NCBI GenBank assembly: GCA_033064195.1
Contig: JARBJD010000033.1
Coordinates: 333,128 to 397,127 of the forward strand
Length of the DNA: 64,000 bases
Direction: 5' to 3'
From: Blattamonas nauphoetae
Lineage: Eukaryota; Preaxostyla; Oxymonadida
Shown here: positions 3,854 through 63,988 of the stretch, piece by piece
Position numbering within the stretch: the first letter of the stretch is position 1
How the letters are laid out: every line of letters starts with the position of its first letter
Made by a program: the position numbers and the translations under genes
Notes under the pieces: generated by a model
Database searches by the model: none
What the model was told of the DNA's origin: nothing
Seen by the model: only the letters and a program-made list of their open reading frames with translations

Positions 3854-6800
3854 TTGCTCAACCCACCCAACACGACCCACAGCCCTTCTTGCTCAACCCA
3901 CCCAACACGACACTCAGCCCTTCTTGCTCAACCCACCCAACACGACACACAGCCCTTCTTGCTCAACCCACCCAACACGACACTCAGCCCTTCTTGCTCA
4001 ACCCACCCAACACGACACACAGCCCTTCTTGCTCAACCCACCCAACACGACACACAGCCCTTCTTGCTCAACCCACCCAACACGACACACAGCCCTTCTT
4101 GCTCTACCCACCCAACACGACACACAGCCCTTCTTGCTCAACCCACCCAACACGACACTCAGCCCTTCTTGCTCAACCCACCCAACACGACACTCAGCCC
4201 TTCTTGCTCAACCCACCCAACACGACACACAGCCCTTCTTGCTCAACCCACCCAACACGACACTCAGCCCTTCTTGCTCAACCCACCCAACACGACACAC
4301 AGCCCTTCTTGCTCAACCCACCCAACACGACACTCAGCCCTTCTTGCTCAACCCACCCAACACGACACACAGCCCTTCTTGCTCAACCCACCCAACACGA
4401 CACTCAGCCCTTCTTGCTCAACCCCCAACACGACACACAGCCCTTCTTGCTCAACCCACCCAACACGACACACAGCCCTTCTTGCTCAACCCACCCAACA
4501 CGACACTCAGCCCTTCTTGCTCAACCCACCCAACACGACACTCAGCCCTTCTTGCTCAACCCACCCAACACGACACACAGCCCTTCTTGCTCAACCCACC
4601 CAACACGACACTCAGCCCTTCTTGCTCAACCCACCCAACACGACACACAGCCCTTCTTGCTCAACCCACCCAACACGACACTCAGCCCTTCTTGCTCAAC
4701 CCACCCAACACGACACTCAGCCCTTCTTGCTCAACCCACCCAACACGACACACAGCCCTTCTTGCTCAACCCACCCAACACGACACACAGCCCTTCTTGC
4801 TCAACCCACCCAACACGACACTCAGCCCTTCTTGCTCAACCCACCCAACACGACACACAGCCCTTCTTGCTCAACCCCCAACACGACACACAGCCCTTCT
4901 TGCTCAACCCACCCAACACGACACTCAGCCCTTCTTGCTCAACCCACCCAACACGACACTCAGCCCTTCTTGCTCAACCCACCCAACACGACACACAGCC
5001 CTTCTTGCTCAACCCACCCAACACGACACTCAGCCCTTCTTGCTCAACCCACCCAACACGACACTCAGCCCTTCTTGCTCAACCCACCCAACACGACACA
5101 CAGCCCTTCTTGCTCAACCCACCCAACACGACACTCAGCCCTTCTTGCTCAACCCACCCAACACGACACTCAGCCCTTCTTGCTCAACCCACAACACGAC
5201 ACACAGCCCTTCTTGCTCAACCCACCCAACACGACACTCAGCCCTTCTTGCTCAACCCACCCAACACGACACTCAGCCCTTCTTGCTCAACCCACCCAAC
5301 ACGACACACAGCCCTTCTTGCTCAACCCACCCAACACGACACACAGCCCTTCTTGCTCAACCCACCCAACACGACACACAGCCCTTCTTGCTCAACCCAC
5401 CCAACACGACACTCAGCCCTTCTTGCTCAACCCACCCAACACGACACTCAGCCCTTCTTGCTCAACCCACCCAACACGACACTCAGCCCTTCTTGCTCAA
5501 CCCACCCAACACGACACTCAGCCCTTCTTGCTCAACCCACCCAACACGACACACAGCCCTTCTTGCTCAACCCACCCAACACGACACTCAGCCCTTCTTG
5601 CTCAACCCACCCAACACGACACTCAGCCCTTCTTGCTCAACCCACCCAACACGACACTCAGCCCTTCTTGCTCAACCCACCCAACACGACACACAGCCCT
5701 TCTTGCTCAACCCACCCAACACGACACTCAGCCCTTCTTGCTCAACCCACCCAACACGACACTCAGCCCTTCTTGCTCAACCCACCCAACACGACACTCA
5801 GCCCTTCTTGCTCAACCCACCCAACACGACACACAGCCCTTCTTGCTCAACCCACCCAACACGACACTCAGCCCTTCTTGCTCAACCCACCCAACACGAC
5901 ACTCAGCCCTTCTTGCTCAACCCACCCAACACGACACACACAGCCCTTCTTGCTCAACCCACCCAACACGACACTCAGCCCTTCTTGCTCAACCCCCAAC
6001 ACGACACACAGCCCTTCTTGCTCAACCCCCAACACGACACTCAGCCCTTCTTGCTCAACCCACCCAACACGACACACAGCCCTTCTTGCTCAACCCACCC
6101 AACACGACACACAGCCCTTCTTGCTCAACCCACCCAACACGACACACAGCCCTTCTTGCTCAACCCCCAACACGACACACAGCCCTTCTTGCTCAACCCC
6201 CAACACGACACACAGCCCTTCTTGCTCAACCCACCCAACACGACACACAGCCCTTCTTGCTCAACCCACCCAACACGACACTCAGCCCTTCTTGCTCAAC
6301 CCACCCAACACGACACTCAGCCCTTCTTGCTCAACCCACCCAACACGACACTCAGCCCTTCTTGCTCAACCCACCCAACACGACACTCAGCCCTTTCTTG
6401 CTCAACCCACCCAACACGACACACAGCCCTTCTTGCTCAACCCACCCAACACGACACTCAGCCCTTCTTGCTCAACCCACCCAACACGACACTCAGCCCT
6501 TCTTGCTCAACCCACCCAACACGACACACAGCCCTTCTTGCTCAACCCACCCAACACGACACTCAGCCCTTCTTGCTCAACCCCCCAACACGACACACAG
6601 CCCTTCTTGCTCAACCCCCAACACGACACTCAGCCCTTCTTGCTCAACCCACCCAACACGACACACAGCCCTTCTTGCTCAACCCACCCAACACGACACA
6701 CAGCCCTTCTTGCTCAACCCACCCAACACGACACACAGCCCTTCTTGCTCAACCCCCCAACACGACACACAGCCCTTCTTGCTCAACCCCCAACACGACA

Positions 6801-9540
6801 CACAGCCCTTCTTGCTCAACCCACCCAACACGACACTCAGCCCTTCTTGCTCAACCCACCCAACACGACACACAGCCCTTCTTGCTCAACCCACCCAACA
6901 CGACACTCAGCCCTTCTTGCTCAACCCACCCAACACGACACTCAGCCCTTCTTGCTCAACCCACCCAACACGACACACAGCCCTTCTTGCTCAACCCACC
7001 CAACACGACACTCAGCCCTTCTTGCTCAACCCCCAACACGACACACAGCCCTTCTTGCTCAACCCCCAACACGACACTCAGCCCTTCTTGCTCAACCCAC
7101 CCAACACGACACACAGCCCTTCTTGCTCAACCCACCCAACACGACACACAGCCCTTCTTGCTCAACCCACCCAACACGACACACAGCCCTTCTTGCTCAA
7201 CCCCCAACACGACACACAGCCCTTCTTGCTCAACCCCCAACACGACACACAGCCCTTCTTGCTCAACCCACCCAACACGACACACAGCCCTTCTTGCTCA
7301 ACCCCCAACACGACACTCAGCCCTTCTTGCTCAACCCACCCAACACGACACACAGCCCTTCTTGCTCAACCCCCAACACGACACACAGCCCTTCTTGCTC
7401 AACCCCCAACACGACACTCAGCCCTTCTTGCTCAACCCACCCAACACGACACTCAGCCCTTCTTGCTCAACCCACCCAACACGACCCACAGCCCTTCTTG
7501 CTCAACCCACCCAACACGACACACAGCCCTTCTTGCTCAACCCACCCAACACGACACACAGCCCTTCTTGCTCAACCCCCAACACGACACACAGCCCTTC
7601 TTGCTCAACCCCCAACACGACACACAGCCCTTCTTGCTCAACCCACCCAACACGACACACAGCCCTTCTTGCTCAACCCACCCAACACGACACTCAGCCC
7701 TTCTTGCTCAACCCACCCAACACGACACTCAGCCCTTCTTGCTCAACCCACCCAACACGACACTCAGCCCTTCTTGCTCAACCCACCCAACACGACACAC
7801 AGCCCTTCTTGCTCAACCCACCCAACACGACACACAGCCCTTCTTGCTCTACCCACCCAACACGACCCACAGCCCTTCTTGCTCAACCCACCCAACACGA
7901 CACACAGCCCTTCTTGCTCAACCCACCCAACACGACACACAGCCCTTCTTGCTCAACCCACCCAACACGACACACAGCCCTTCTTGCTCAAGCCACCCAA
8001 CACGACACACAGCCCTTCTTGCTCAACCCACCCAACACGACACACAGCCCTTCTTGCTCTACCCACCCAACACGACCCACAGCCCTTCTTGCTCAACCCA
8101 CCCAACACGACACACAGCCCTTCTTGCTCAACCCACCCAACACGACACTCAGCCCTTCTTGCTCAACCCACCCAACACGACACACAGCCCTTCTTGCTCA
8201 ACCCCCAACACGACACACAGCCCTTCTTGCTCAACCCACCCAACACGACACTCAGCCCTTCTTGCTCAACCCACCCAACACGACACACAGCCCTTCTTGC
8301 TCAACCCACCCAACACGACACACAGCCCTTCTTGCTCTACCCACCCAACACGACCCACAGCCCTTCTTGCTCAACCCACCCAACACGACACACAGCCCTT
8401 CTTGCTCAACCCACCCAACACGACACTCAGCCCTTCTTGCTCAACCCACCCAACACGACACACAGCCCTTCTTGCTCAACCCCCCAACACGACACACAGC
8501 CCTTCTTGCTCAACCCACCCAACACGACACTCAGCCCTTCTTGCTCAACCCACCCAACACGACACACAGCCCTTCTTGCTCAACCCACCCAACACGACAC
8601 TCAGCCCTTCTTGCTCAACCCACCCAACACGACACACAGCCCTTCTTGCTCAACCCCCAACACGACACACAGCCCTTCTTGCTCAACCCACCCAACACGA
8701 CACTCAGCCCTTCTTGCTCAACCCACCCAACACGACACACAGCCCTTCTTGCTCAACCCCCAACACGACACACAGCCCTTCTTGCTCAACCCACCCAACA
8801 CGACACACAGCCCTTCTTGCTCAACCCCCCAACACGACACACAGCCCTTCTTGCTCAACCCACCCAACACGACACTCAGCCCTTCTTGCTCAACCCACCC
8901 AACACGACACACAGCCCTTCTTGCTCAACCCACCCAACACGACACACAGCCCTTCTTGCTCAACCCACCCAACACGACACACAGCCCTTCTTGCTCAACC
9001 CACCCAACACGACACACAGCCCTTCTTGCTCAACCCACCCAACACGACACTCAGCCCTTCTTGCTCAACCCACCCAACACGACACACAGCCCTTCTTGCT
9101 CAACCCACCCAACACGACACACAGCCCTTCTTGCTCAACCCACCCAACACGACACTCAGCCCTTCTTGCTCAACCCACCCAACACGACACTCAGCCCTTC
9201 TTGCTCAACCCACCCAACACGACACACAGCCCTTCTTGCTCAACCCACCCAACACGACACTCAGCCCTTCTTGCTCAACCCACCCAACACGACACTCAGC
9301 CCTTCTTGCTCAACCCACCCAACACGACACACAGCCCTTCTTGCTCAACCCACCCAACACGACACACAGCCCTTCTTGCTCAACCCACCCAACACGACAC
9401 ACAGCCCTTCTTGCTCAACCCACCCAACACGACACTCAGCCCTTCTTGCTCAACCCACCCAACACGACACACAGCCCTTCTTGCTCAACCCACCCAACAC
9501 GACACTCAGCCCTTCTTGCTCAACCCACCCAACACGACAC
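3854..9540 (+). repeat. 35-bp satellite array, about 160 units
   Basis: Uninterrupted head-to-tail copies of a 35-bp unit beginning CTCAACCCACCCAACACGAC and ending in a segment that reads CAGCCCTTCTTG. Two main variants alternate irregularly (CGACACACAG and CGACACTCAG). Rarer ones are CGACCCACAG, CTCTACCCAC, and 33- and 34-bp units lacking one or two bases in the C-rich part. No spacers are present. Because 35 is not a multiple of three and the unit has no plus-strand stops, all three plus frames stay open for over 1,900 codons, which is an artefact of the repeat. Local blocks of several units are themselves duplicated: the CTCTACCC plus CGACCCACAG pair recurs about 210 bp apart near 7,848 and 8,058. 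The minus strand is G-rich, with GGGTGGG in each full-length unit. Confidence 0.97.
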
Positions 9541-51457: not shown

Positions 51458-52240
51458 TTAAGTGAAGAATGTCGTGACAGCCTTGAACGAAATCAGTTGT
51501 GAGGAGGTGGTTGGAGAATTGACAACCATTAGAGGTGAAAGATTGAAGATATGATCGAGAATTGGTTCGAACGAGAAATACTCGCGCAGATTGGTGAGAA
51601 ATTTTGCCCTAAAAAGAACAATGTTCTCCTCTAGTTCAGCCTTTTCATCAATTCCAAGCTTCCGGTGATTGCCATAGAATGTGACAATGAAATGTTGGGC
51701 TGATTCTAGTAGAAATTGGGGTGTGAGGAAGTTCTCAATTTTTGAAGTAGATATGAGGTAATGTTGTTGAAAACTGGCAAAATCAAGATCTTTGCACTGA
51801 TACGCGACAAGTTGAGATTTGAGTGGGTTCAAGAGAAGATCCATGACGAATAGTCGAGCAATGTTGATCGGCTCGATCAACTGTTCGAAATGAAAAAGTG
51901 GGAGTGGTTGAGGTGATGTAATGAAGTAGTGGAACACTGGAAGAATTGATAGGAGATACGATACTGTCTTTAATTTACTCATCCATCTAGTATCATTTCC
52001 AAAAGGAATTATGGTGCTTCGCTGCCTCATGAATGTTTGTGTGTCGGTCCATGATTTCTGAATTTGGCGGTGATGATGAACGAAGAGAGAAAAAGAATGG
52101 CATAGCTCAAGAAGATCATTAAATGGCTTCACAGCCTCATCTCTCAGAGTCCTTAAGAAAACTAAATTTGTGGTGTGGGCGCCGCAATGGATATGTAGTA
52201 TCCCATTGTGTTTTGCACTGATAAGTCCAAATAGGCCGTT
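51458..52240 (-). pseudogene. hAT-family transposase fragment
   Basis: The minus frame is open from a TAA at about 52,243 to 51,458 (~260 codons) with no good ATG near its beginning. It contains HCGAHTTNLVFLRTL, the C-x-x-H-x-x-N-L pattern of hAT transposases, and DTRWMSKLKTVSYLL, the conserved D-T-R-W segment of the catalytic core. The N-terminal zinc finger and the C-terminal dimerisation block are absent, so it is a remnant. I found no terminal repeats for it. Confidence 0.7.
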
Positions 52241-53569
52241 TATGTGGCCTTTTAATGCCGCTTAGTAGTATAGTAGACGATTTGGGAACCAGATTGAAAT
52301 AGTCGTTGAAATCAGAAACGAAAAGTCAATTCCGATTGACCATTTCTAAATCTTGTATTAAAAGGAATTTAGGCCATTTCAATGATGCCAATATTTGACC
52401 TAAATTCCAGAAATATGTCCAATATTTCGACCTCATTTTAAGCGTCAATTTTGAAGCAAATTTTTGTCATATTCCAAAAATGTTGTCACTTTTTTCGATG
52501 TTTTTTCACTTTTGAACTCGAACAAAGTGAATCCAACTTGAGAACCACTTCGAAAAAAATCGAAAAAAATTCTAAAATGTCGGGGACGATGTGAGTCATC
52601 GATCAAAACAATCCCGATGAAAATCGGTTGAGAATTTGTGGAACTACGTACCGAACAGTGGTCAAAAAATGGACCAAAAAGTCGATTTTCAGATTTCGCT
52701 ACCAACAACTACTTTATGTCTTAAATTCACCTCAAACATCTTCTAAAATTACAAAATCGATTTCGAAAGGTGAGATTCGCGATAAAAAACACTTTTTGGA
52801 AAAAAAGTTTGATCCGACCCATTGAGGATTTTTACGAGTCGACATTTTCGAGATACGGTATGGACCCTGTCTTCCATCATCTTTCGCTCAGGAATCGTCC
52901 TCTTATGACGCCTTTTTGTGTTAGATCGGATAAGAACGCCTTCTGGCGACTTTAGGTATGAACCTTTTCACGTCACGATCCTTCGGACACTTTTTTGCCA
53001 ATTTTCGTTTTTAACGTTAGATCTTCTACATTCTTCGCATTCGCGTCCTAGCGACGCTTTTTTGAGATTTCCTGTTTCCCCACTTCATTAGTCCTCTTTT
53101 TTTGCACACACCTTTGATTCACCACATTTTCACCTCACTTTCAGTCACCGTCATTTTTGTATGTGTTTTCACATATCATCCTCCCTTTCTCACGTTCTGA
53201 GGAGGGAGTGGCTGAATTTCTTAACACTTTTGTTCGGTACTTTTTCTATAAAGTTGATTTTACGTCTTTTTCCCCATATCTTGTCCGTATGTTTGTCTTA
53301 ACGAAAACTCATTTCAGCACATTGTATCACTCATCTTCTTTGTTCCATTTCACCACTTATCCGTTCATAAGACACTCTCATTTACCTCATTTCACAACCC
53401 TTTTTTCCGTCGTTCACACCTCACGAGCACATCATTTTGTCTTCATTGTTTTTGACTTTTTTGCTTAATTTGACAAAAAGAGATTGAAACAAGGTACAAT
53501 GAAGTGAGCAAGTACAATAGTGAATGGTGAAATTGATAAAGTGAGAATTGAGGTACACTAATGTGTTTT
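52241..53569. other. AT-rich noncoding stretch
   Basis: No protein-like frame was seen. Many T-rich and A-rich runs occur. The left border of the viral insertion is probably here or slightly further right, but I could not find its terminal repeat. Confidence 0.4.
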
Positions 53570-55660: not shown

Positions 55661-55817
55661 TCGGGAACGAGATGAGAGGATCATGTCCCATTGAAGTACT
55701 TTCTCTGATCAAACAAGACTGATCGAACCCATCGATGAGAGGATCGAAGTCTCGGAAGATCACCAACGCTATAATCACGAATGAAAATTTATTTTTGAAT
55801 TTTTTAATTTGTATTAA

Positions 55818-55982
55818 ATGAATCCAACTGAGATGTACAACGAAAGACGTCGAGTATATTCAGAACAAGCATTAATTGAATCAATGAGAGAAGAGAACTG
55901 TTCGCTAGTCTCTGAGTATGTCAGAAATAATGTGCCGGTGACGTATGTTCATGAGGGAGTTGTCATTTTTTATTTTCTATGA
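55818..55982 (+). CDS. Small ORF, 54 aa, first in the viral block
   Basis: The open frame starts at an ATG preceded by an AT-rich tract (TTTTTTAATTTGTATTAA) like that of other viral genes. It ends in ATGA, overlapping the start of the fibre-like gene. The product is charged at the N-terminus (NERRRVYSE) and hydrophobic at the end. It is unrecognised. The T-rich promoter motif of the next gene lies inside its last codons, which could mean the ORF is fortuitous. Confidence 0.35.
   Translation: MNPTEMYNERRRVYSEQALIESMREENCSLVSEYVRNNVPVTYVHEGVVIFYFL
55955..55978 (+). promoter_or_regulatory. T-rich promoter motif, fibre-like gene
   Basis: Reads CATTTTTTATTTTCT directly before the ATG at 55,979. 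Same motif as on the minus-strand genes. Confidence 0.6.
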
Positions 55983-56857
55983 AAGAGCAAACAGAAATGA
56001 ATCGAAAAAAATACAATTCACAAATGATTGAGAAAATGATTGATCATAATCTCTCAACAACCAACGAGAATTCGGCAGTGATTGACTCACTTCAGAAGAC
56101 AACAGAAGCACACAAGTCAGCGATATCTTCAATCCAAAAAGTAGTCAGCACAAATGGATCAATCACGACACCAACAATTGGAGGATTGATCAATGTGAAT
56201 GGAGCGAAGTGGAACATATCAGAGGGATCACTTCCGAAGTATCCAGGAACGTATCCATCATCAACATTTTCTTCTGGAATTTCAATATCGCAATCACTTG
56301 CAGAAACATCAGGAATTCAGTTCAATGGTGATGGAATCATTATGTGGTCTCCGTGTGACAAACCAGCATTGTATTACTACGATGAAGACACAGGTTCAGG
56401 AGTGTTTTCAATATCCACAACAGGAAGCTTTTCTCAACTGTCAGACAGAAGAGTGAAAAGAAATATTGAACCATACCCTGATGTTCTTGAACAATTGAAT
56501 AAAGTGGAAATTGTGCAGTACCAATTCAACACCTTCGACTCGAAGATCAACAAAGTGACGAAACAAATCGAAAAAGAAACTGATGAAGAACACTTGAAGA
56601 ACTGCAAAGAGAAATGTGAATGCTTGAAGAAGGAAAGTGAGAAGAAACATATTGGTGTGATTGCTCAACAGATCCAAGAAATCTTTCCTGAAGTCGTGAA
56701 TGATTCCAATCCAGATTGTCTTCAAGTTGATTATGCAGAACTCTCTTGCTTCTGTATCAAAGCAATTCAGGAACTGAGTAACATTGTCGGACAACAACAG
56801 ACAATCATATCTGAACTCATACAAAAATATAATTCACTGATTAGTATTCCAACATGA
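55979..56857 (+). CDS. Fibre-like protein with C-terminal peptidase S74 (intramolecular chaperone) domain
   Basis: 292 aa. Residues ~1-55 look coiled-coil, ~60-150 are Gly/Ser/Thr-rich beta sequence, and from ~154 the S74 domain begins with SDRRVKRNI, holding the Ser155/Lys160 dyad at the spacing expected for self-cleavage. KHIGVIAQQIQEIFPEVV and VDYAELSCFCIKAIQEL follow, as in endosialidase-type chaperones of phage and virus fibres. The domain trimerises the stalk and then cuts itself off. In a capsid gene block a receptor-binding fibre is the natural role (inference). The start ATG follows ATTTTTTATTTTCT, the block's promoter-like motif. Confidence 0.85.
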   Translation: MKEQTEMNRKKYNSQMIEKMIDHNLSTTNENSAVIDSLQKTTEAHKSAISSIQKVVSTNGSITTPTIGGLINVNGAKWNISEGSLPKYPGTYPSSTFSSGISISQSLAETSGIQFNGDGIIMWSPCDKPALYYYDEDTGSGVFSISTTGSFSQLSDRRVKRNIEPYPDVLEQLNKVEIVQYQFNTFDSKINKVTKQIEKETDEEHLKNCKEKCECLKKESEKKHIGVIAQQIQEIFPEVVNDSNPDCLQVDYAELSCFCIKAIQELSNIVGQQQTIISELIQKYNSLISIPT

Positions 56858-57251
56858 GATCAACCAGAAATTCATAGTACTCTCTGATTATTTTTCCATT
56901 GATTGTCTCTTGTGTTTCCATCTCAATCGATTCACCAGAACTGTCTTTGAACCAGATCTTCAATATTGATTGACGAGTAGTTAATTCCCACTTCTTTCGC
57001 TTCGCAATTTGTTCATTACAGAAAGCAACAAACGAGTCATTGAATGCATCAGTCTGGATCCAATCGCCATGGATTGTGATGTGCTGAGGAATATCCTTTG
57101 AAATGACTGTGGTTGAACCATCAATTTCCTCCCTCACATGGATGAGTTTACAGTCAAGAAAGTAGATGTATTTTTGTTTTCTAGAATTGGTAAAATCAGG
57201 AGGTAATTGAGCAGTGTGAGAATTCTGAATTGAGAAGTAACGCTTCACCAT
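56841..57251 (-). CDS. Viral block protein, 136 aa, unknown
   Basis: It starts at 57,251 after the TTTTATTTTTGTAG motif shared by the block. Its last 17 bases overlap the end of the fibre-like gene on the other strand. The predicted protein is mixed alpha/beta with a basic, tryptophan-containing centre (KRKKWELT, ILKIWFKD) and an acidic C-terminus. There is no signal or membrane segment. A minor virion component is possible from position alone; I recognise no family. Confidence 0.6.
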   Translation of the reverse strand: MVKRYFSIQNSHTAQLPPDFTNSRKQKYIYFLDCKLIHVREEIDGSTTVISKDIPQHITIHGDWIQTDAFNDSFVAFCNEQIAKRKKWELTTRQSILKIWFKDSSGESIEMETQETINGKIIREYYEFLVDLMLEY

Positions 57252-57280
57252 TTGTGATTTCTACAAAAATAAAATATTCA
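57252..57280 (-). promoter_or_regulatory. T-rich promoter motif, 136-aa gene
   Basis: Reads ATATTTTATTTTTGTAGAAA about ten bases before the ATG at 57,251. Confidence 0.55.
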
Positions 57281-57282
57281 AT

Positions 57283-59001
57283 TTAGTATCCTCTCTTCAC
57301 TTCTTCATACGCTTCTTGGAGTCGACGATCAATGACATATCGCACTCTTGGTTGTCCATTTTCAATCCAGAATAACCAGTACGTTGCCTGATGTAATGCC
57401 AATATCGGTGGAGGAGGACCTTCTGGAGTTGAGGTGAAATATGGATCGAGTTCTCCCTGATTGATTGGTGATCCTCTGAAGACAATGTTGACTGATTCTG
57501 CTGTTGAAATACCTTCTTCACCACCAGCGATTTCACTTCGATCTGTTGGAACCATGAAAGTGAAACAAGTTGCATCTGTGAATGGTTTAATTTTCTTGTA
57601 CCGTGCTATGGAATTCGAAAACCTTCTTTCCCAAATTCGAGGTTCACAAATGGAATTCTCAAACTCTTCTGTTGCTGAACAACCGATAAAATCACCATTC
57701 ACCATCATCATTTGATAGAACTCAGGTGAGATGGTTGACATTGGGAAATTAGGGAAGTTTGATCCAAGCATTTCGAATTGACCAACATATTGAGGATTGC
57801 GAAAGACTGTACACTCGTTTGGTCTTTCAGGGAATAAGCACATAAGATTCATGAGATTGTTGAGTTTGATACTGATGTTTGATCTCACTCCCATGGCATT
57901 TGCAGATGATTGAAATGATTGCGTGTCAATTCTTTCTGCTTTAATGACATACACAGTTTTTGAGTAAGTGTTGAAGAGTGATTGTTTCGTTGCATCAGTG
58001 ATTTGATATCCATAACAAATTGAAGCGACTTTATCCACAGATGAGGAGAGGACAGTTGAAGTTGTCTCTTTAGTTTCTAACCAATCCCAATGCGAAAGAA
58101 CAGACGCTGTTCCTTCGGAGGTGGTTGGTCCTCTATGTCTTTCACACTGTAGAACTGGATTCCCAATTTGTGTAAACTCCATAGTTAAAGTTGACCATTC
58201 TCTATCATGCATCATCTGAAGATAACCTCGTTCAGTATTATGATCAATCTGCCCGTAAGATGGGATATCTAATTTTTCTTGAAGGGTTTGTTGAATGACA
58301 GTTGATGCACGAATGGGACAATACACAAGAGAATCAGTTGTCAAATGAAATCGTAACCGTAAATTGCCAAAGATTGAATTCGGATACTGATCAAAGGTAC
58401 TCAGTGGAAGGAGATTCACAAATGGTATTACAAGAGGAATGGTTAACGGATATGAGGTTTCTGTACCACTCATTGGGATTAAATATGCTCCACACACACT
58501 TGGATCCATTCTCTGAACATTTTCAAATAGACTGTAACAATGCTTCATGTTGTTTTTCTCCTCATACGACTTGAAAGTGTGATACAGAAATGATTCGTGA
58601 ACATGATTATTCTGAAGTGTGTTGTCAATAATGTTTCCTTTACTGTCAACCAGTCTCATGTCTCGAATTGCATCTGATGATGACTTGAAACCGTAGAACA
58701 TTCCGAAGAAAGATACAAAACTTCTCCCCCATTGTGTTGGTTTTTTGTATGGAACAGTGATTGATAGATCTATACGCAAATGACTCTTCGCAAATTCAGT
58801 CACATCATGACCGTCATAGCACAATGGAACTTCAATCTCATCTCCAATTCTGCATGGCATGGGAGGATTTGTTGGATGAACTTCTTGAATGGAATAAACG
58901 TGCGGCTCGGAATCCCACTGTTTTGGCAAGTATGATTGCACTTCAATTTGCTCAATTAGTGTCGATGTTGGTTTGGATTGATTTGATCTGATACTTCTCA
59001 T
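57283..59001 (-). CDS. Putative major capsid protein, paralog 2 (572 aa)
   Basis: It starts at 59,001 directly after TTTTTTATTTTTCTATAA. The protein is beta-strand-rich with no signal peptide, and at 572 aa it is in the size range of double jelly-roll capsid proteins of Polinton-like viruses. It is clearly related to the next gene: SIFGNLRLRFHLTTDSLVYC against CLFGDLKLSVHMNEDAFVCC, SPINQGELDPYF against HPIYQGNLDTYY, and the ending PPILALHQATYWLFWIENGQ against PILATTATTWWVLRYSNGE. Capsid assignment rests on size, composition, pairing and the packaging ATPase nearby; I cannot verify the fold. Ends in TAA. Confidence 0.6.
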   Translation of the reverse strand: MRSIRSNQSKPTSTLIEQIEVQSYLPKQWDSEPHVYSIQEVHPTNPPMPCRIGDEIEVPLCYDGHDVTEFAKSHLRIDLSITVPYKKPTQWGRSFVSFFGMFYGFKSSSDAIRDMRLVDSKGNIIDNTLQNNHVHESFLYHTFKSYEEKNNMKHCYSLFENVQRMDPSVCGAYLIPMSGTETSYPLTIPLVIPFVNLLPLSTFDQYPNSIFGNLRLRFHLTTDSLVYCPIRASTVIQQTLQEKLDIPSYGQIDHNTERGYLQMMHDREWSTLTMEFTQIGNPVLQCERHRGPTTSEGTASVLSHWDWLETKETTSTVLSSSVDKVASICYGYQITDATKQSLFNTYSKTVYVIKAERIDTQSFQSSANAMGVRSNISIKLNNLMNLMCLFPERPNECTVFRNPQYVGQFEMLGSNFPNFPMSTISPEFYQMMMVNGDFIGCSATEEFENSICEPRIWERRFSNSIARYKKIKPFTDATCFTFMVPTDRSEIAGGEEGISTAESVNIVFRGSPINQGELDPYFTSTPEGPPPPILALHQATYWLFWIENGQPRVRYVIDRRLQEAYEEVKRGY

Positions 59002-59031
59002 TTATAGAAAAATAAAAAATACAATATCAAT
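59002..59031 (-). promoter_or_regulatory. T-rich late-type promoter motif, capsid paralog 2
   Basis: Reads GTATTTTTTATTTTTCTATA directly before the ATG, making CTATAAATG at the start. Confidence 0.65.
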
Positions 59032-59053
59032 TTTTTCTTTTACTGTTTTGTCT

Positions 59054-60913
59054 CTACATGATTCCCAAATCTTTATGCAACGCTTTCAGTGTGTGATTAG
59101 GATAGTACTCAACTTTCGGTTCGCCATTGCTGTATCGTAATACCCACCATGTGGTTGCAGTGGTTGCTAATATTGGTGCTGGAGGATGTGTAAAAGTTGT
59201 CATATCACCTCCACTTTGACTTGGGTTGTAAACATTGTAGTATGTGTCAAGATTGCCCTGATAGATTGGATGCGATCTCAAAGTGACCGCAGTGTTTCCT
59301 TTTGAACTGATGGAATCATTGCAGTTCGTTGGACATCCACTACGTTGAGTTGGGAAGCACAGAAGGAAGTCAGTATTGTCATGAATTGGACGAACTCTTG
59401 TCATTGTTTCATTGGGATATGTTCCGTCACCAGTGAGTTTCGCTTCAACGAGAGAATCCGTCAGTGATCGCTCCAAATCATCAGGAACAGCTAGGTATGA
59501 ATCGAGATTGAGAGTCGATAATGCGAACTGATAGAAGCGAGCTCCAATAGTTGTCGTTGGTTGTTCTGGATAATACCTGTATTGTAAAGTCACTTGGATG
59601 TTCTTCTGCATTGGATTATGGAAGCAAGTGACTCCATTGTCGTAGTGACGGAAGAGAAGCATAATGTCCTTTGCATTCACAACAACCATTTGCTGAGTAC
59701 AATCAATTCCTGTTGCCGTTGGTGTCTTCTGAAATGGATAGAATGAGATCTTCTCTGCTGGAATTGTTCCAGGACGATTCCGATACATCTCCATGAGTTT
59801 CTTTATCGCACCATCTTTCATTTTGTATCCAGCACTCATGCAATACACATCATCAATCCGATAGTTTGTGACGTTTAATGAGATGTACTGATCGACGAAT
59901 TCTGGTTCTGTTGTCACGGCATTGGCTGTTGAACAAACAATGTCTTTAGTAACGGTTGGTTGAAGAAATGATTGGCCAATTTGAACGAAATTCTTTGTGC
60001 ATGAGGTGACAAGGTTATTCAAGAAATAGGGACGATGTTGAATACAATTGAGAATTGCTGCTTTAATCGTTGGTGCTGCTGCTGTTCCAGTTACGAGTGA
60101 TGATAGTGTATCTTTCAAAGTAAGTTCAGGATTCACAGAACAACAAACAAACGCATCCTCATTCATATGAACACTCAATTTCAAATCACCAAAGAGACAT
60201 TTTGGATAGTCAGTCATTCCAGAGAAAATGAGAAGATCTTCAAGATTGATTGACACGCGAATTGGCACATCAATTGTGTCTTGAAACACCCCTGTTCCAG
60301 ATGTTGTTGTAAAATCAGAAAGTGGAATATAGACACCAGCCACAGATTCATCATGCTCCCATGCGTTTTTCCAAGGTGTGTGACAATGTTTTCGATTCTC
60401 CAATTGACTCTTCGGTTTTATCATATTGTAGATGTGAGACTCCATTGAAACGTCATTGTTTGTTGTGCTGATGATTCTCTGATTGTTGTGAAGAACAGTA
60501 AGGTCACGAAAGATTGATGCCGAATGCTTGAGTCCAACGAAAATGAATATTCTCTCATTCATGTTCGATCCAACTTTGTCAGCTGTAGTTTGCCAATTAT
60601 TGAGTCTCAATGTCGCCGTCATAGTGAACGTAATGAAGGAATCATCGATTTGACATATGTCCTGATTACCAGTCAGTGGAATGATTATCTCTTGTCCCGT
60701 GTAGAAGCGTGCATTCTCTGATGGTTTCAATTCTTGAATCGAAGTACTGTGTGCCCCATCATTCATTAGGTAATTAATGAAATGTTCGGACCTGAGTTGT
60801 TGTTGAATTTGACCCATGTCATCTCTCGTGTATTCTATCCTTCCAGTGGGATTTCCAGTCAATGATGATGCTCCAGTTCTTTTGTTTGTCAGATGTGTTA
60901 TATGCGAGTTCAT
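59054..60913 (-). CDS. Putative major capsid protein, paralog 1 (619 aa)
   Basis: It starts at 60,913 after TTTTTTATTTTTTGTTAAA and ends in TAG, 52 bases before the start of its paralog. It is beta-rich, with DISMxL-like early blocks (IFRDLTVLHNNQRI), HCHTPWKNAWEHDESVAGVY, then the GDLKLSVHMN segment and the C-terminal QGNLDTYY and WWVLRYSNGEPKVEYY segments shared with paralog 2. It is longer mainly in the N-terminal third. Two diverged capsid-like proteins in tandem could form different capsomers or one could be a specialised vertex protein. Other possibilities are a penton or spike protein. Confidence 0.6.
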   Translation of the reverse strand: MNSHITHLTNKRTGASSLTGNPTGRIEYTRDDMGQIQQQLRSEHFINYLMNDGAHSTSIQELKPSENARFYTGQEIIIPLTGNQDICQIDDSFITFTMTATLRLNNWQTTADKVGSNMNERIFIFVGLKHSASIFRDLTVLHNNQRIISTTNNDVSMESHIYNMIKPKSQLENRKHCHTPWKNAWEHDESVAGVYIPLSDFTTTSGTGVFQDTIDVPIRVSINLEDLLIFSGMTDYPKCLFGDLKLSVHMNEDAFVCCSVNPELTLKDTLSSLVTGTAAAPTIKAAILNCIQHRPYFLNNLVTSCTKNFVQIGQSFLQPTVTKDIVCSTANAVTTEPEFVDQYISLNVTNYRIDDVYCMSAGYKMKDGAIKKLMEMYRNRPGTIPAEKISFYPFQKTPTATGIDCTQQMVVVNAKDIMLLFRHYDNGVTCFHNPMQKNIQVTLQYRYYPEQPTTTIGARFYQFALSTLNLDSYLAVPDDLERSLTDSLVEAKLTGDGTYPNETMTRVRPIHDNTDFLLCFPTQRSGCPTNCNDSISSKGNTAVTLRSHPIYQGNLDTYYNVYNPSQSGGDMTTFTHPPAPILATTATTWWVLRYSNGEPKVEYYPNHTLKALHKDLGIM

Positions 60914-60945
60914 TTTAACAAAAAATAAAAAATTACATTTATGCT
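60914..60945 (-). promoter_or_regulatory. T-rich late-type promoter motif, capsid paralog 1
   Basis: Reads AATTTTTTATTTTTTGTTAA before the ATG (GTTAAAATG). Confidence 0.65.
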
Positions 60946-61246
60946 TTAACTCTAGTTACTTTTTCTTTTGGTTTCTTCGCTTTTGGTTTCAGCTTTCTTC
61001 TGTGTATTTCTCCTCTGAGCTTGTTCGCTACTGCAGTGTTTCCTTCATTGATCGCTTGCTCGTATTGTGCCATCTTCTCTGCATGGATTTGCTGATCCGA
61101 TTTCACATCTGGTATCATTTCAATTCCTGTCTGCGCTACCTTCGAAATCAGTGGTCCAACAAAGGGGATGAGATTCAGAAATGGAGCTCCAACTCTGAGT
61201 ATATTTTGCCAACTGCTGCTAATTTTGATAACCAACCTGGTGCCAT
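60939..61246 (-). pseudogene. Small virion-type protein with frameshift near its start
   Basis: The promoter motif precedes an ATG at 61,246 (MAPGWLSKLAAVGKIYS), but that frame stops after 23 codons. The neighbouring frame is open to 60,939 (from about 61,235) and encodes a hydrophobic stretch (FLNLIPFVGPLISKVAQTG) and a Lys-rich tail (KLKPKAKKPKEK). A one-base indel between about 61,240 and 61,180 would explain this. A hydrophobic helix plus basic tail recalls small internal or membrane-active virion proteins (inference). Confidence 0.6.
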
Positions 61247-61275
61247 TTTAATAAAAATCAAATATTCGAATACGA
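61247..61275 (-). promoter_or_regulatory. T-rich promoter motif, frameshifted small gene
   Basis: A weaker version, ATTTGATTTTTATTAAA, before the ATG at 61,246. It supports that ATG rather than the open-frame start as the original start. Confidence 0.5.
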
Positions 61276-61283
61276 GTGAATGT

Positions 61284-61583
61284 TTATCCTTTGAATTGAA
61301 TTTTGGAATTTGACGAGAGTGGCAAATCATCATTGGAGTATCTCCCATTTCGAGGTGGTTCATATTCAATCATCTGCGGTTTTTGTTGACGATTGATCGC
61401 TTTATTTTGTTGATAAACGTCCATCATTCCTCCTAATCCGTTGAGTATTCCTCCTGCTGTTTGTCCAAATTTACTGTTCGTTTCAGGAGAGCAATCCACC
61501 ACCAACTTGGAAGGAATGTTGGAGGAGAGATGATGATGAAAGAAGAAGGAGTTTGCTGAAACTTTGAAACTTCCTGGTGCCAT
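61284..61583 (-). CDS. Viral block protein, 99 aa, unknown
   Basis: The ATG at 61,583 is directly preceded by TTTTTTATTTTTCTATAA. It begins MAPG like the upstream neighbour, has a Gly-rich centre (GGILNGLGGMMDVYQQNKAI), and then a polar tail rich in Asn, Arg and Pro. The frame is intact. A small structural or scaffold protein is a guess from position. Confidence 0.6.
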   Translation of the reverse strand: MAPGSFKVSANSFFFHHHLSSNIPSKLVVDCSPETNSKFGQTAGGILNGLGGMMDVYQQNKAINRQQKPQMIEYEPPRNGRYSNDDLPLSSNSKIQFKG

Positions 61584-61610
61584 TTATAGAAAAATAAAAA
61601 ATACAATTCA
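61584..61610 (-). promoter_or_regulatory. T-rich late-type promoter motif, 99-aa gene
   Basis: Reads GTATTTTTTATTTTTCTATA, nearly the same as before capsid paralog 2, abutting the ATG. Confidence 0.65.
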
Positions 61611-61693
61611 TTTATAATTTTAGCGAGGAATTGCTTTCGTCAGAGAAATGCCATAGTTGAGAATGGTGTTGTATGCTTCATTGAAGGCAATAC

Positions 61694-62203
61694 TCATGTC
61701 TTTCCACCAACAAGGATCTTGAAAATGGTTCTAAACACTGGGAGTTTATTCAGACATAGGCACTTGTCAGACAAATCATCCAGTTCGATCACCACATCAT
61801 TAATCCCAGTGAGTGTAGCAATCAGTGCACATAAATCACTTTGGTTCGTGATCAGTTTCTTCGATGGTTCAATGAGATTATTCAATAGTTTCTTTTCACA
61901 AGCGAATGCATTCTTGTAGACGAGTAATAACTGATCTTTGAATGCCGAAATATTAGAAATATATTCTCGAAGTGGAATTGAACGACTTTGAATGGGGCTG
62001 ATGGATATGTCTCTAGTGGTGGATCATAAAACACCTGGAACATTATCGAGTTCGACATTAGCGCTTTGTTCATTACGATCTTCGAGCTTAGATCTTCCAG
62101 AATTCGAACCTTTATTGTCGATGATGACATTGTTGGTGATTGATGTTGGGACTGAAGAAGAACTTGTGTGTTTCGTAAATTGACAACTGAGAATTGGTTG
62201 CAT
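61694..62203 (-). pseudogene. Viral block gene of about 170 codons with in-frame TGA
   Basis: The start at 62,203 follows the block's T-rich motif. A TGA at 62,024-62,026 stops the frame after 59 codons, but the same frame stays open to 61,694. The part after the stop contains IPLREYISNISAFKDQLLL and LCALIATLTGINDVVIELDD, a helical protein-like sequence. It is therefore a nonsense-mutated or readthrough gene. No family is recognised. Confidence 0.65.
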
Positions 62204-62235
62204 CACTTTCTATAAAAATAAAAAAATATATATTA
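62204..62235 (-). promoter_or_regulatory. T-rich promoter motif, TGA-interrupted gene
   Basis: Reads ATTTTTTTATTTTTATAGAA a few bases before the ATG at 62,203. Confidence 0.6.
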
Positions 62236-62262
62236 ATGTTTTTAATCAGACATTTCTTTCTG

Positions 62263-63206
62263 TTACTGAACATATTGAGAGTAAGCTGGCATATTCGAAG
62301 ATTGGTATTGACCGATATCTTCATCTGTTCTTGTTGCATATGCTTTGCGTGTCAGAGTACTAATCTCTGATGCTATGGTAGCATTATGTCTACCAAGGAA
62401 TGTTTGCAAATTTTCTTGATTTGTGATGAATTCTAGAAACTGTGGATACACCTGCTCCTTGAAATCCTTTCTTTTCTTCATTCTCTGATGTCCTTCGTTG
62501 GTACTGTCGAATCCTGAAAGATGTTCTTCAAGCCATCTGTCCCACATTTGTGATGCTACTTTCGATTGAATTGAATTGAACACCATATTGTCTATTACTC
62601 TTTTCCCAGTATCTGCTGGATTATCTCGACTGGCACGAGTTATTCCCAATTCATTTGTCATGAAGTCACCAACAGCTTTCTTCATTATTGCATAAGGTTG
62701 TTGTGATCTTTGTGCTTGCATGTCTCCATAGCTGATGTCTCGAAAACTGGATGGTAGATCGTATGATCCATTCTTGAGGAAATTAGAGTGTGAAGCTTTG
62801 ATTCTCCTTCCGAATTGGCGATTAAATGCTGTATATGATGTCTGTTTCGCTTGTCTGGTGTTGGATTCATTGCGTAGTATGTCTCTTTGACCGGTCTACT
62901 GTTGTATGGTGCGAGCATGGCTCCATTGACTGCAATCAAATCTTTCGTCTCATTATCGTAGACCATCACATCTGGGATTTTTCCATGTTGTTCCATTAGA
63001 ACAGTCCAATTCTGTCCAGTTCTCTTGATGTACTCAAGCGCTGATGGATAACTACTGAGGGCATCGTTCCATCTGGTTTGAATATCATCGTCAGCATAGA
63101 TTCTTTTCATCGCTGCTTGAGTTTCTGCTGCGTATCTCATTTTTGGTTTCTTCTCTCTTGTTTTTCTTGTTGGTTGGTTGTACACAATCTGTGGTATCAT
63201 TGACAT
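62263..63206 (-). pseudogene. Viral block gene of about 315 aa with one frameshift
   Basis: The start at 63,206 follows the motif. The first frame encodes a basic N-terminus (RKTREKKPKMR) and runs well to MNPTPDK near 62,845. The protein-like sequence then continues in another frame (FNRQFGRRIKASHSNFL, DISYGDMQAQ) to 62,263. The total length is one base short of a multiple of three plus stop, so a single-base deletion or assembly error is likely. The second half is helical and polar. Unknown function; the basic start suggests nucleic-acid contact (inference). Confidence 0.65.
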
Positions 63207-63236
63207 TTCATACAAAATAAAAAAACCAAAACTATA
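63207..63236 (-). promoter_or_regulatory. T-rich promoter motif, frameshifted 315-aa gene
   Basis: Reads GGTTTTTTATTTTGTATGAA before the ATG at 63,206. Confidence 0.6.
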
Positions 63237-63259
63237 TTTTAATTGGAGTTAAATCACAA

Positions 63260-63988
63260 ATGAACAAATCGAATCAATCATTAACAGCATACGTGAATGC
63301 AAAATTGAGTGAAGCTTCTAATAGGAATGTTTCTCATGAAGTGCAATCACAAATACATCCAGACTTAAATTTCAATCGCAACAGTGTCAATGTCCTTGTT
63401 GGAAACAGAGGAAGTGGCAAAACATTTAATGCTCTTCGAGAGGTTGCCAAGCTCCAGAATGTTCAAGTCAGAAATGAACTGTTTCACTTGTTCGTCTTCG
63501 TCACTGATAAGAGCATTGATCCAACATTCGATAAATTCAAACCAATACTGAACGTTCCTTTTGTCAAAGTCAAATATGATGATGCACTTCCATTTCTGTT
63601 GGAACTCTCCGAATCGAAAGCTGCATATGAAGAAATTATTGACAATCAGTGGCAAAACAGAATCACAGATGAATGCAGAGAGAATCTCTTTGACTCACTT
63701 TACATTGATGACTTCTCAGTGAAGAATCTCCAAACGATTATCCTTCTTGATGACTGTTGTAGGATCCTAGGTGAACGTAGAACATCCAAAAATAGAATGA
63801 CAATGATGGACTTACTACTGGAGAATCGACAACCGAAGTTCACATTCTTTCTGACGATGCATGAGCTCTTCAGTTTGTCAGCAGACATGAAGTCAAACAT
63901 TGATTCAATGTGGATCTTTGGAGGATTCAACAAAGAACGAATCAGTCGAGTCTCTCCTCAGTTGAACTCACCAATTGATATCATCTGA
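63260..63988 (+). CDS. A32/FtsK-HerA-type genome-packaging ATPase
   Basis: 242 aa, ending just inside the window. Walker A is GNRGSGKT at residues 48-55, Walker B is TIILLDDC near 162-169, followed by a downstream MHELFSL/Asn segment in the position of sensor motifs. Length and layout match packaging ATPases of Polintons, Polinton-like viruses and other double jelly-roll dsDNA viruses, which pump DNA into the capsid. It is divergently oriented from the adjacent frameshifted gene with only 53 bases between starts. It is the strongest marker that the block is a dsDNA virus. The frame is intact. Confidence 0.85.
   Translation: MNKSNQSLTAYVNAKLSEASNRNVSHEVQSQIHPDLNFNRNSVNVLVGNRGSGKTFNALREVAKLQNVQVRNELFHLFVFVTDKSIDPTFDKFKPILNVPFVKVKYDDALPFLLELSESKAAYEEIIDNQWQNRITDECRENLFDSLYIDDFSVKNLQTIILLDDCCRILGERRTSKNRMTMMDLLLENRQPKFTFFLTMHELFSLSADMKSNIDSMWIFGGFNKERISRVSPQLNSPIDII

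Follow-up and report, generated by a model that had tools for sequence, protein, structure and literature searches.

A viral element at the end of a contig of the flagellate protist Blattamonas nauphoetae carries two related capsid-like genes in tandem, raising the question of whether their products share one role or divide it. The stretch analysed (the window) comprises 64,000 nucleotides of contig JARBJD010000033.1 (C257:333128-397127), its right edge being the end of the contig. A preliminary description of the window had reported two proteins of 572 and 619 residues with colinear blocks in common, read as a duplicated capsid gene. Both open reading frames (ORFs) were confirmed, and BLASTP aligned their products end-to-end (150/602 identical residues, 25%; 42% positive; E 2e-48), identifying them as full-length tandem paralogues whose genes lie 52 bp apart:

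57283..59001, minus strand: 572-residue capsid-like protein, the more variable of the two and a member of allele class A (BLASTP match to the 619-residue protein)
59054..60913, minus strand: 619-residue capsid-like protein, the conserved paralogue (BLASTP match to the 572-residue protein)

Because this E value belongs to a full-length alignment, chance similarity was ruled out as the source of the colinear blocks; a conserved C-terminus, PPxPILA...NGxPxVxY, is likewise common to both proteins. Two other candidates were rejected: an assembly artefact, by the identical gene order on many contigs, and an oddity of the window alone, by the presence of the pair elsewhere in the genome. Searches of that genome (88,311,006 bases, 837 contigs) returned 28 loci, 8 via the 572-residue protein and 20 via the 619-residue protein, of which L001 and L011 are the window itself; sequence of both paralogues was present in 28/28, several with broken frames. 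Across these copies the 619-residue protein (hereafter 619) is nearly invariant in most compared loci, while the 572-residue protein (572) has at least seven allele classes.

Unequal variation of the two paralogues

For 619, mean nonsynonymous divergence (dN) was 0.013 and synonymous divergence (dS) 0.27 among 18 copies, with a mean dN/dS of 0.05 over 153 pairs; this set excludes L013 and L023, which contain stops, and the partial 619 sequences of L002-L008. The corresponding values for 572 were 0.138 and 0.64, calculated over the first 480 residues of 13 copies (ten from loci picked through 619, the rest being the window, L002 and L008). The positions at which copies of 572 differ cluster in four segments, residues ~81-100, 170-187, 229-320 and 450-475, which occupy 160 of 479 columns yet hold 82% of all differences. 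Among representatives of the seven classes, 55% of cells differ inside the segments versus 5% elsewhere, a descriptive contrast, as the segment limits were set after viewing the profile.

Segments 1 and 3, grouped at 75% identity, sort 20 copies of 572 into seven allele classes, and grouping by segment 2 yields five classes and by segment 4 six, partly shared. The allele table draws on 17 of the 28 loci together with the window, C25B and C198, and excludes L014-L017, L023-L025, L028 and L029, where the 572 frame is disrupted or only partly present. In comparisons between classes (20 pairs covering six of the seven), the segments have a dS of 1.19 and a dN/dS of 0.48, as compared with 0.56 and 0.05 for the remaining scaffold; 619 in 14 matched pairs has a dS of 0.25 and a dN/dS of 0.05. 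Within classes, segment dN/dS was 0.92, a value from a single pair. Outside the four segments both proteins thus look strongly constrained (dN/dS ~0.05), and the two seem to serve different roles, 619 being conserved and 572 hypervariable. This asymmetry fits the earlier proposal of different subunits better than redundancy; no significant profile or PDB match supported a double jelly-roll fold for either protein. Along single copies of both 619 and 572, divergence shifts abruptly when read in 150-base windows, a patchwork that suggests recombination.

Possible roles of the pair

These patterns suggest, from sequence comparison, that one member of the pair is a constant capsid subunit and the other a subunit with serotype-like variation. 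We consider it quite probable that both paralogues are capsid subunits, and infer that they may be major subunits of the double jelly-roll type. The explanation that we favour, if only somewhat, is a Maverick/Polinton-type virus with a constant 619 and a variable 572 subunit. Under this explanation, 619 would supply the constant facets of the shell and 572 would form a second capsomer with its variation carried on outward loops, comparable to adenoviruses, in which a single conserved hexon fold bears hypervariable loops; for this division of labour itself we regard the chances as evenly balanced. Variants of 572 would be retained for the advantage that novelty gives when receptors change, when the host recognises the virus or when resident copies compete, and would pass between copies via recombination. 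Loop variants might be kept while the remaining 572 sequence is homogenised by recombination, a retention suggested by silent divergence that is older in the loops than in the scaffold.

In favour of this explanation, the variable positions of the two paralogues tend to coincide (Spearman 0.34 after smoothing, with 0/2000 circular shifts as high, and 0.20 raw; 31 loci, of which 29 contribute to 572 and 31 to 619), although the coincidence is only moderate. Several further observations weigh against it. Segment dN/dS between classes is below 1, so that relaxed constraint could suffice for the variation of 572; segment dS may be inflated by misalignment, and misalignment and relaxed constraint could mimic part of the contrast in dS between loops and scaffold. 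Moreover, since the loci were chosen by similarity to the window's proteins (20/28 via its 619), the uniformity of 619 is partly a selection effect. Divergent versions of 619 do occur, at 78-84% identity on C25 and at 84-92% in parts of L006, neither being among the 18 copies compared, and an initial reading of 619 as uniformly invariant was softened after these were found. Searches of Pfam, PHROG, NCBIfam and the Protein Data Bank (PDB) with 572 and 619 returned no significant match. An AlphaFold2 model of 572, with 619 as sole companion sequence, was unusable, with a predicted local distance difference test score (pLDDT) of 30.2 and a predicted template modelling score (pTM) of 0.22. Finally, among the ORFs scanned, no significant match to a penton was recognised, and no Pfam match to an adenovirus-like cysteine protease was found, these ORFs being part of those of a full element.

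Relaxed constraint can be taken further, to a rather unlikely alternative in which the variation of 572 reflects such relaxation together with recombination among decaying genomic copies, and brings no benefit. The segment dN/dS of 0.48 would agree with this, as would the frequency of degraded copies: a 320-residue gene is disrupted in the window, and 572 is broken or incomplete in 9/28 loci. A scaffold dN/dS of 0.05 nevertheless argues against mere decay, and the four segments of a 572 copy are mostly inherited together as one class. Internal stops are also few: 572 was found at at least 76 places in its own genome with stops in only 9/76, and 619 at at least 71 places, at 95% identity or more, with stops in only 6/71. 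Both counts are lower bounds, as only the best candidates were scored, and the proportions are biased because these are the best-scoring copies.

A second alternative, somewhat less improbable than decay, assigns the role of sole major capsid protein to 619, with 572 turned into a vertex, spike or receptor-binding protein to which the fibre encoded next to the pair is attached. The very different evolution of the two proteins is compatible with this arrangement, no separate penton was recognised among the ORFs scanned, and the 572 gene stands on the fibre side wherever a fibre gene was seen to adjoin the pair (window, C25, C530, L002 and L008). Against it, 572 resembles 619 over its full length and has an equally constrained scaffold, and the C-terminus common to both proteins argues against 572 being a spike.

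The fold searches bear on a third and more improbable alternative, namely that 572 and 619 both lack the role of a double jelly-roll capsid protein, the pair being other virion or accessory proteins and the true capsid gene lying among the unassigned ORFs. Profile and PDB searches and the structure model gave no significant support for a capsid fold: single-sequence PDB searches returned rows at chance level only (glutaredoxin, E 0.14; leptin, E 0.21 and 1), and profiles of 4 and 13 sequences returned nothing at E<=10. Scans of IMG/VR with 572, 619, a 572+619 alignment, an ATPase alignment and an integrase alignment gave 5, 1, 91, 179 and 147 pattern matches, respectively, with no confirmed relative among them. 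The two proteins had also been called beta-rich, which was only weakly borne out by Chou-Fasman beta-minus-alpha values of +0.03 and +0.06, an unrelated 206-residue protein likewise scoring +0.03. However, the size of the pair, its position near the ATPase and small virion-type proteins, and its strong constraint all suit capsid genes, and besides the pair, the ORFs between the ATPase and the 136-residue or fibre gene reach at most 342 residues (C25, C198, and C530 with the L049 stretch).

The element and its copies in the genome

That the feature is a viral element we regard as practically certain, a confidence that was already high and rose slightly when a target-site duplication was found. 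We read it as an end portion of an endogenous DNA virus, of Maverick/Polinton type, in a flagellate protist. The copy in the window is damaged and starts at 52264, left of the position first reported (55818). Beyond the pair, its parts are as follows:

52264..52820, plus strand: left element end, with terminal motif AGTAG at 52264 and long-terminal-repeat remnants at 52264-52379 and 52510-52820
55773..55962, plus strand: inner end of the terminal repeat, 97% to C198:68159-68349, where it leads toward the polymerase gene
55979..56857, plus strand: fibre-like protein of 292 residues with a C-terminal S74 intramolecular chaperone domain (Pfam PF13884, E 2e-14)
56841..57251, minus strand: 136-residue protein adjoining the 572 gene
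60939..61235, minus strand: ~99-residue gene; relatives begin MAPGWLSKL..., and the start deviates from relatives in the window copy
61284..61583, minus strand: ~102-residue gene; relatives begin MAPGSFNKL..., and the N-terminal part deviates in the window copy
61882..62130, minus strand: remnant of a ~206-residue gene, having YDPPLETYPSAP in common with complete relatives
62263..63215, minus strand: homologue of the 320-residue gene, as two overlapping ORFs versus one 320-residue ORF in C25 and C198
63260..63988, plus strand: packaging-type P-loop ATPase, shortened, with GNRGSGKT and ILLDDC, 2.3 kb from the 619 gene

The S74 fibre of the preliminary description was confirmed by the Pfam match, and the same protein matches PHROG tail-fibre families (E down to 1e-17). 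Its packaging ATPase was recovered in part: the P-loop and Walker B-like motifs are present and kept across element types, but all Pfam P-loop family matches were sub-threshold. The ATPase frame terminates 12 bases short of the contig end and is ~40 codons shorter than its relatives. The 136-residue protein was found at at least 150 places (the best 150 of 748 candidates), and its single-sequence AlphaFold2 model was unusable (pLDDT 39.4).

The viral hallmark genes anticipated past 64 kb were found in sister copies, the window's contig ending at 64000. Copies on C25 and C198 carry an integrase, a polymerase and a complete ATPase, that is, the content lost at the contig end. Integrase matches (rve, PF00665) in both had E values of 4e-4 to 7e-6, below the Pfam cut-off. 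The type I polymerase ORF on C198 matched DNA_pol_B_2 over its C-terminal part at E 7e-5, also below the cut-off; across the genome, 15 of 22 matches to this family exceeded it, one of these on C198. The C198 copy further encodes a DUF5906/VapE-type helicase (E 1e-19; 524 residues) after a shortened 572-type gene, with an adjoining short ORF that is primase-like by eye and has no Pfam match. The earlier identification of an integrated virus of the Polinton kind in a protist, with a duplicated capsid-like gene, holds. As polymerase and rve integrase both occur in sister copies, Maverick/Polinton is a more apt label than Polinton-like virus (PLV).

A second element type was recognised, in which the integrase is 37% identical to that of the first and a 342-residue gene replaces the 320-residue one (~30% over ~155 residues). 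The window ATPase is 96% identical to a 292-residue C25 protein, which in turn shares 56% identity with its type II counterpart. On C530, the capsid cassette comes after type II replication genes and includes both paralogues, their frames broken; the pair thus accompanies different replication genes in the two element types. The favoured division into a constant 619 and a variable 572 could be extended, tentatively and as a less than even prospect, to two major capsid subunits born of tandem duplication. One would hardly change, and the other would be a stock of serotype-like alleles that can replace one another, varying in four hypervariable patches on the surface, maintained longer than their scaffold and reshuffled between integrated copies and two replication modules.

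The terminal repeats sought in the preliminary description were found on C831; the protease sought with them was not recognised in the ORFs scanned. A 2.6-kb repeat precedes the C198 polymerase and also, at 90% identity, the C25 fibre. Among the best 40 of 1534 candidates scored, C831 has this repeat inverted and inward-facing. Both C831 termini begin AGTAGTTATAGAAGCG, at 91831 and inverted at 118264, with CATGAA outside each as a 6-bp target-site duplication, giving an insertion of 26.4 kb (91831-118264). This end was settled by a 181-base stretch, an alignment of 13 outer stretches having been indecisive; within the span, the part covered is a copy of the 136-residue gene. Other repeat pairs are less simple, facing inward 39.6 kb apart on C66 and outward on C100. 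The left-end remnants of the window match C25 at 82% and 80.5% (BLASTN), window 52530-52820 matches C198:66535-66825 at 82%, and the terminus at 52264 is related to those of C25 and C831.

As for the arrangement of copies, 12 of 26 places with A-type 572 have a 619 partner among the 29 of 71 listed 619 places that were compared, with 59-92 bp between matches. C179, C361, C676 and C721 each hold two copies of 572 in opposite orientation, 10-23 kb apart, suggesting nested or clustered insertions. Tandem repeats of 231 and 239 bp, mutually inverted, lie between two neighbouring C198 elements (L045:5093-5793 and 7396-7871).

Among the smaller genes, the ~99- and ~102-residue products show weak similarity when compared as a pair of sequences (E 1e-4), and their relatives start MAPG(W/S)..KL followed by a hydrophobic stretch (window 60939-61583; L032:482-1128). 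They may reflect another tandem duplication, or may be peptides that act on membranes, like adenovirus pVI. The ~206-residue protein (L032:1165-1785, minus strand; relatives in L044, L046, L048-L050 and L053) keeps YDPPLETYPSAP in both element types, and its PSAP resembles a late-domain motif, of the kind that recruits the endosomal sorting complex required for transport (ESCRT).

Elsewhere in the window, positions 3854-9540 hold ~164 copies of a 35-bp unit in an array (96% matching), a region of strong strand asymmetry with a GC skew of about -0.7 at 4-8 kb, and a 224-residue ORF at 51458-52132 looks by eye like part of a hAT-type transposase, with no Pfam match. The main text of the genome paper (PMC10703272) does not contain the words virus, viral, Maverick, Polinton or transposable.

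Comparison with known systems

One account of Polintons gives them a single double jelly-roll capsid protein plus a penton (PMC4028283). The present element resembles Maverick/Polinton elements in its rve integrase, its family-B polymerase, its putative packaging-type ATPase and its large capsid-like gene. It also has inverted ends with a 6-bp target duplication, which mark Polintons. It is unlike them in its two capsid-like paralogues, its S74 fibre, and the penton and adenovirus-like protease that went unrecognised in the ORFs scanned. The C831 copy, at 26.4 kb, also exceeds the 15-20 kb given for the group (PMC4028283). Target duplications of PLVs are put at ~4-6 bp in another report (PMC12220804). 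The same report describes two hybrid elements carrying both virophage-like and PLV major capsid proteins (MCPs); these likewise have two capsid genes per element, but of different viral types, unlike the tandem paralogues described here.

A Metamonada MCP group, as outlined in PMC10120064, includes Trichomonas vaginalis DUF4106 and Streblomastix, and so offers endogenous Maverick-type capsid genes of metamonads, another oxymonad among them. Neither 572 nor 619 matched DUF4106 (PF13388) in a Pfam scan at E<=1, and a PF13388 search of the genome gave no match, its control being equally silent.

Adenoviruses have a single hexon gene, in which hypervariable segments on a conserved scaffold give serotype-like classes. 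In the present element, unlike the adenovirus arrangement, a second, less variable paralogue adjoins the variable one.

The preliminary description had raised the possibility of an undescribed group. The arrangement has a precedent, in that PLVs with several capsid genes are already published: the Trimcap account reports three distinct major capsid genes in 39/39 members (PMC7805220). Trimcap and the present element are alike in having multiple distinct major-capsid-type genes in one small DNA virus. By description they are set apart, Trimcap being metagenomic with three genes, and the present element being genome-integrated in a flagellate host, with two genes and a polymerase and rve integrase. 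No third large capsid paralogue, and hence no Trimcap set of three, was found in the copies on C25, C198 and C530, none of them read end to end. The part of the Trimcap account available describes no hypervariable alleles (PMC7805220), and we found no account of such Blattamonas elements, or of hypervariable alleles of a Maverick capsid paralogue, in literature whose coverage leaves out most subscription journals and supplements. What is new here is a 619 that is near-invariant in most of the loci compared, beside a 572 with at least seven allele classes that differ mainly in four segments. If the favoured explanation is correct, it would represent subfunctionalised capsid subunits in a Maverick, and serotype-like diversity stored in the genome of a host without adaptive immunity. 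The selective cause of that diversity, whether receptors, host recognition or competition with resident viruses, would be directly testable, because many natural alleles are present in one sequenced, cultured flagellate. The element would also join Trimcap as a further lineage with several capsid genes, in a group for which a single major capsid protein is the usual description.

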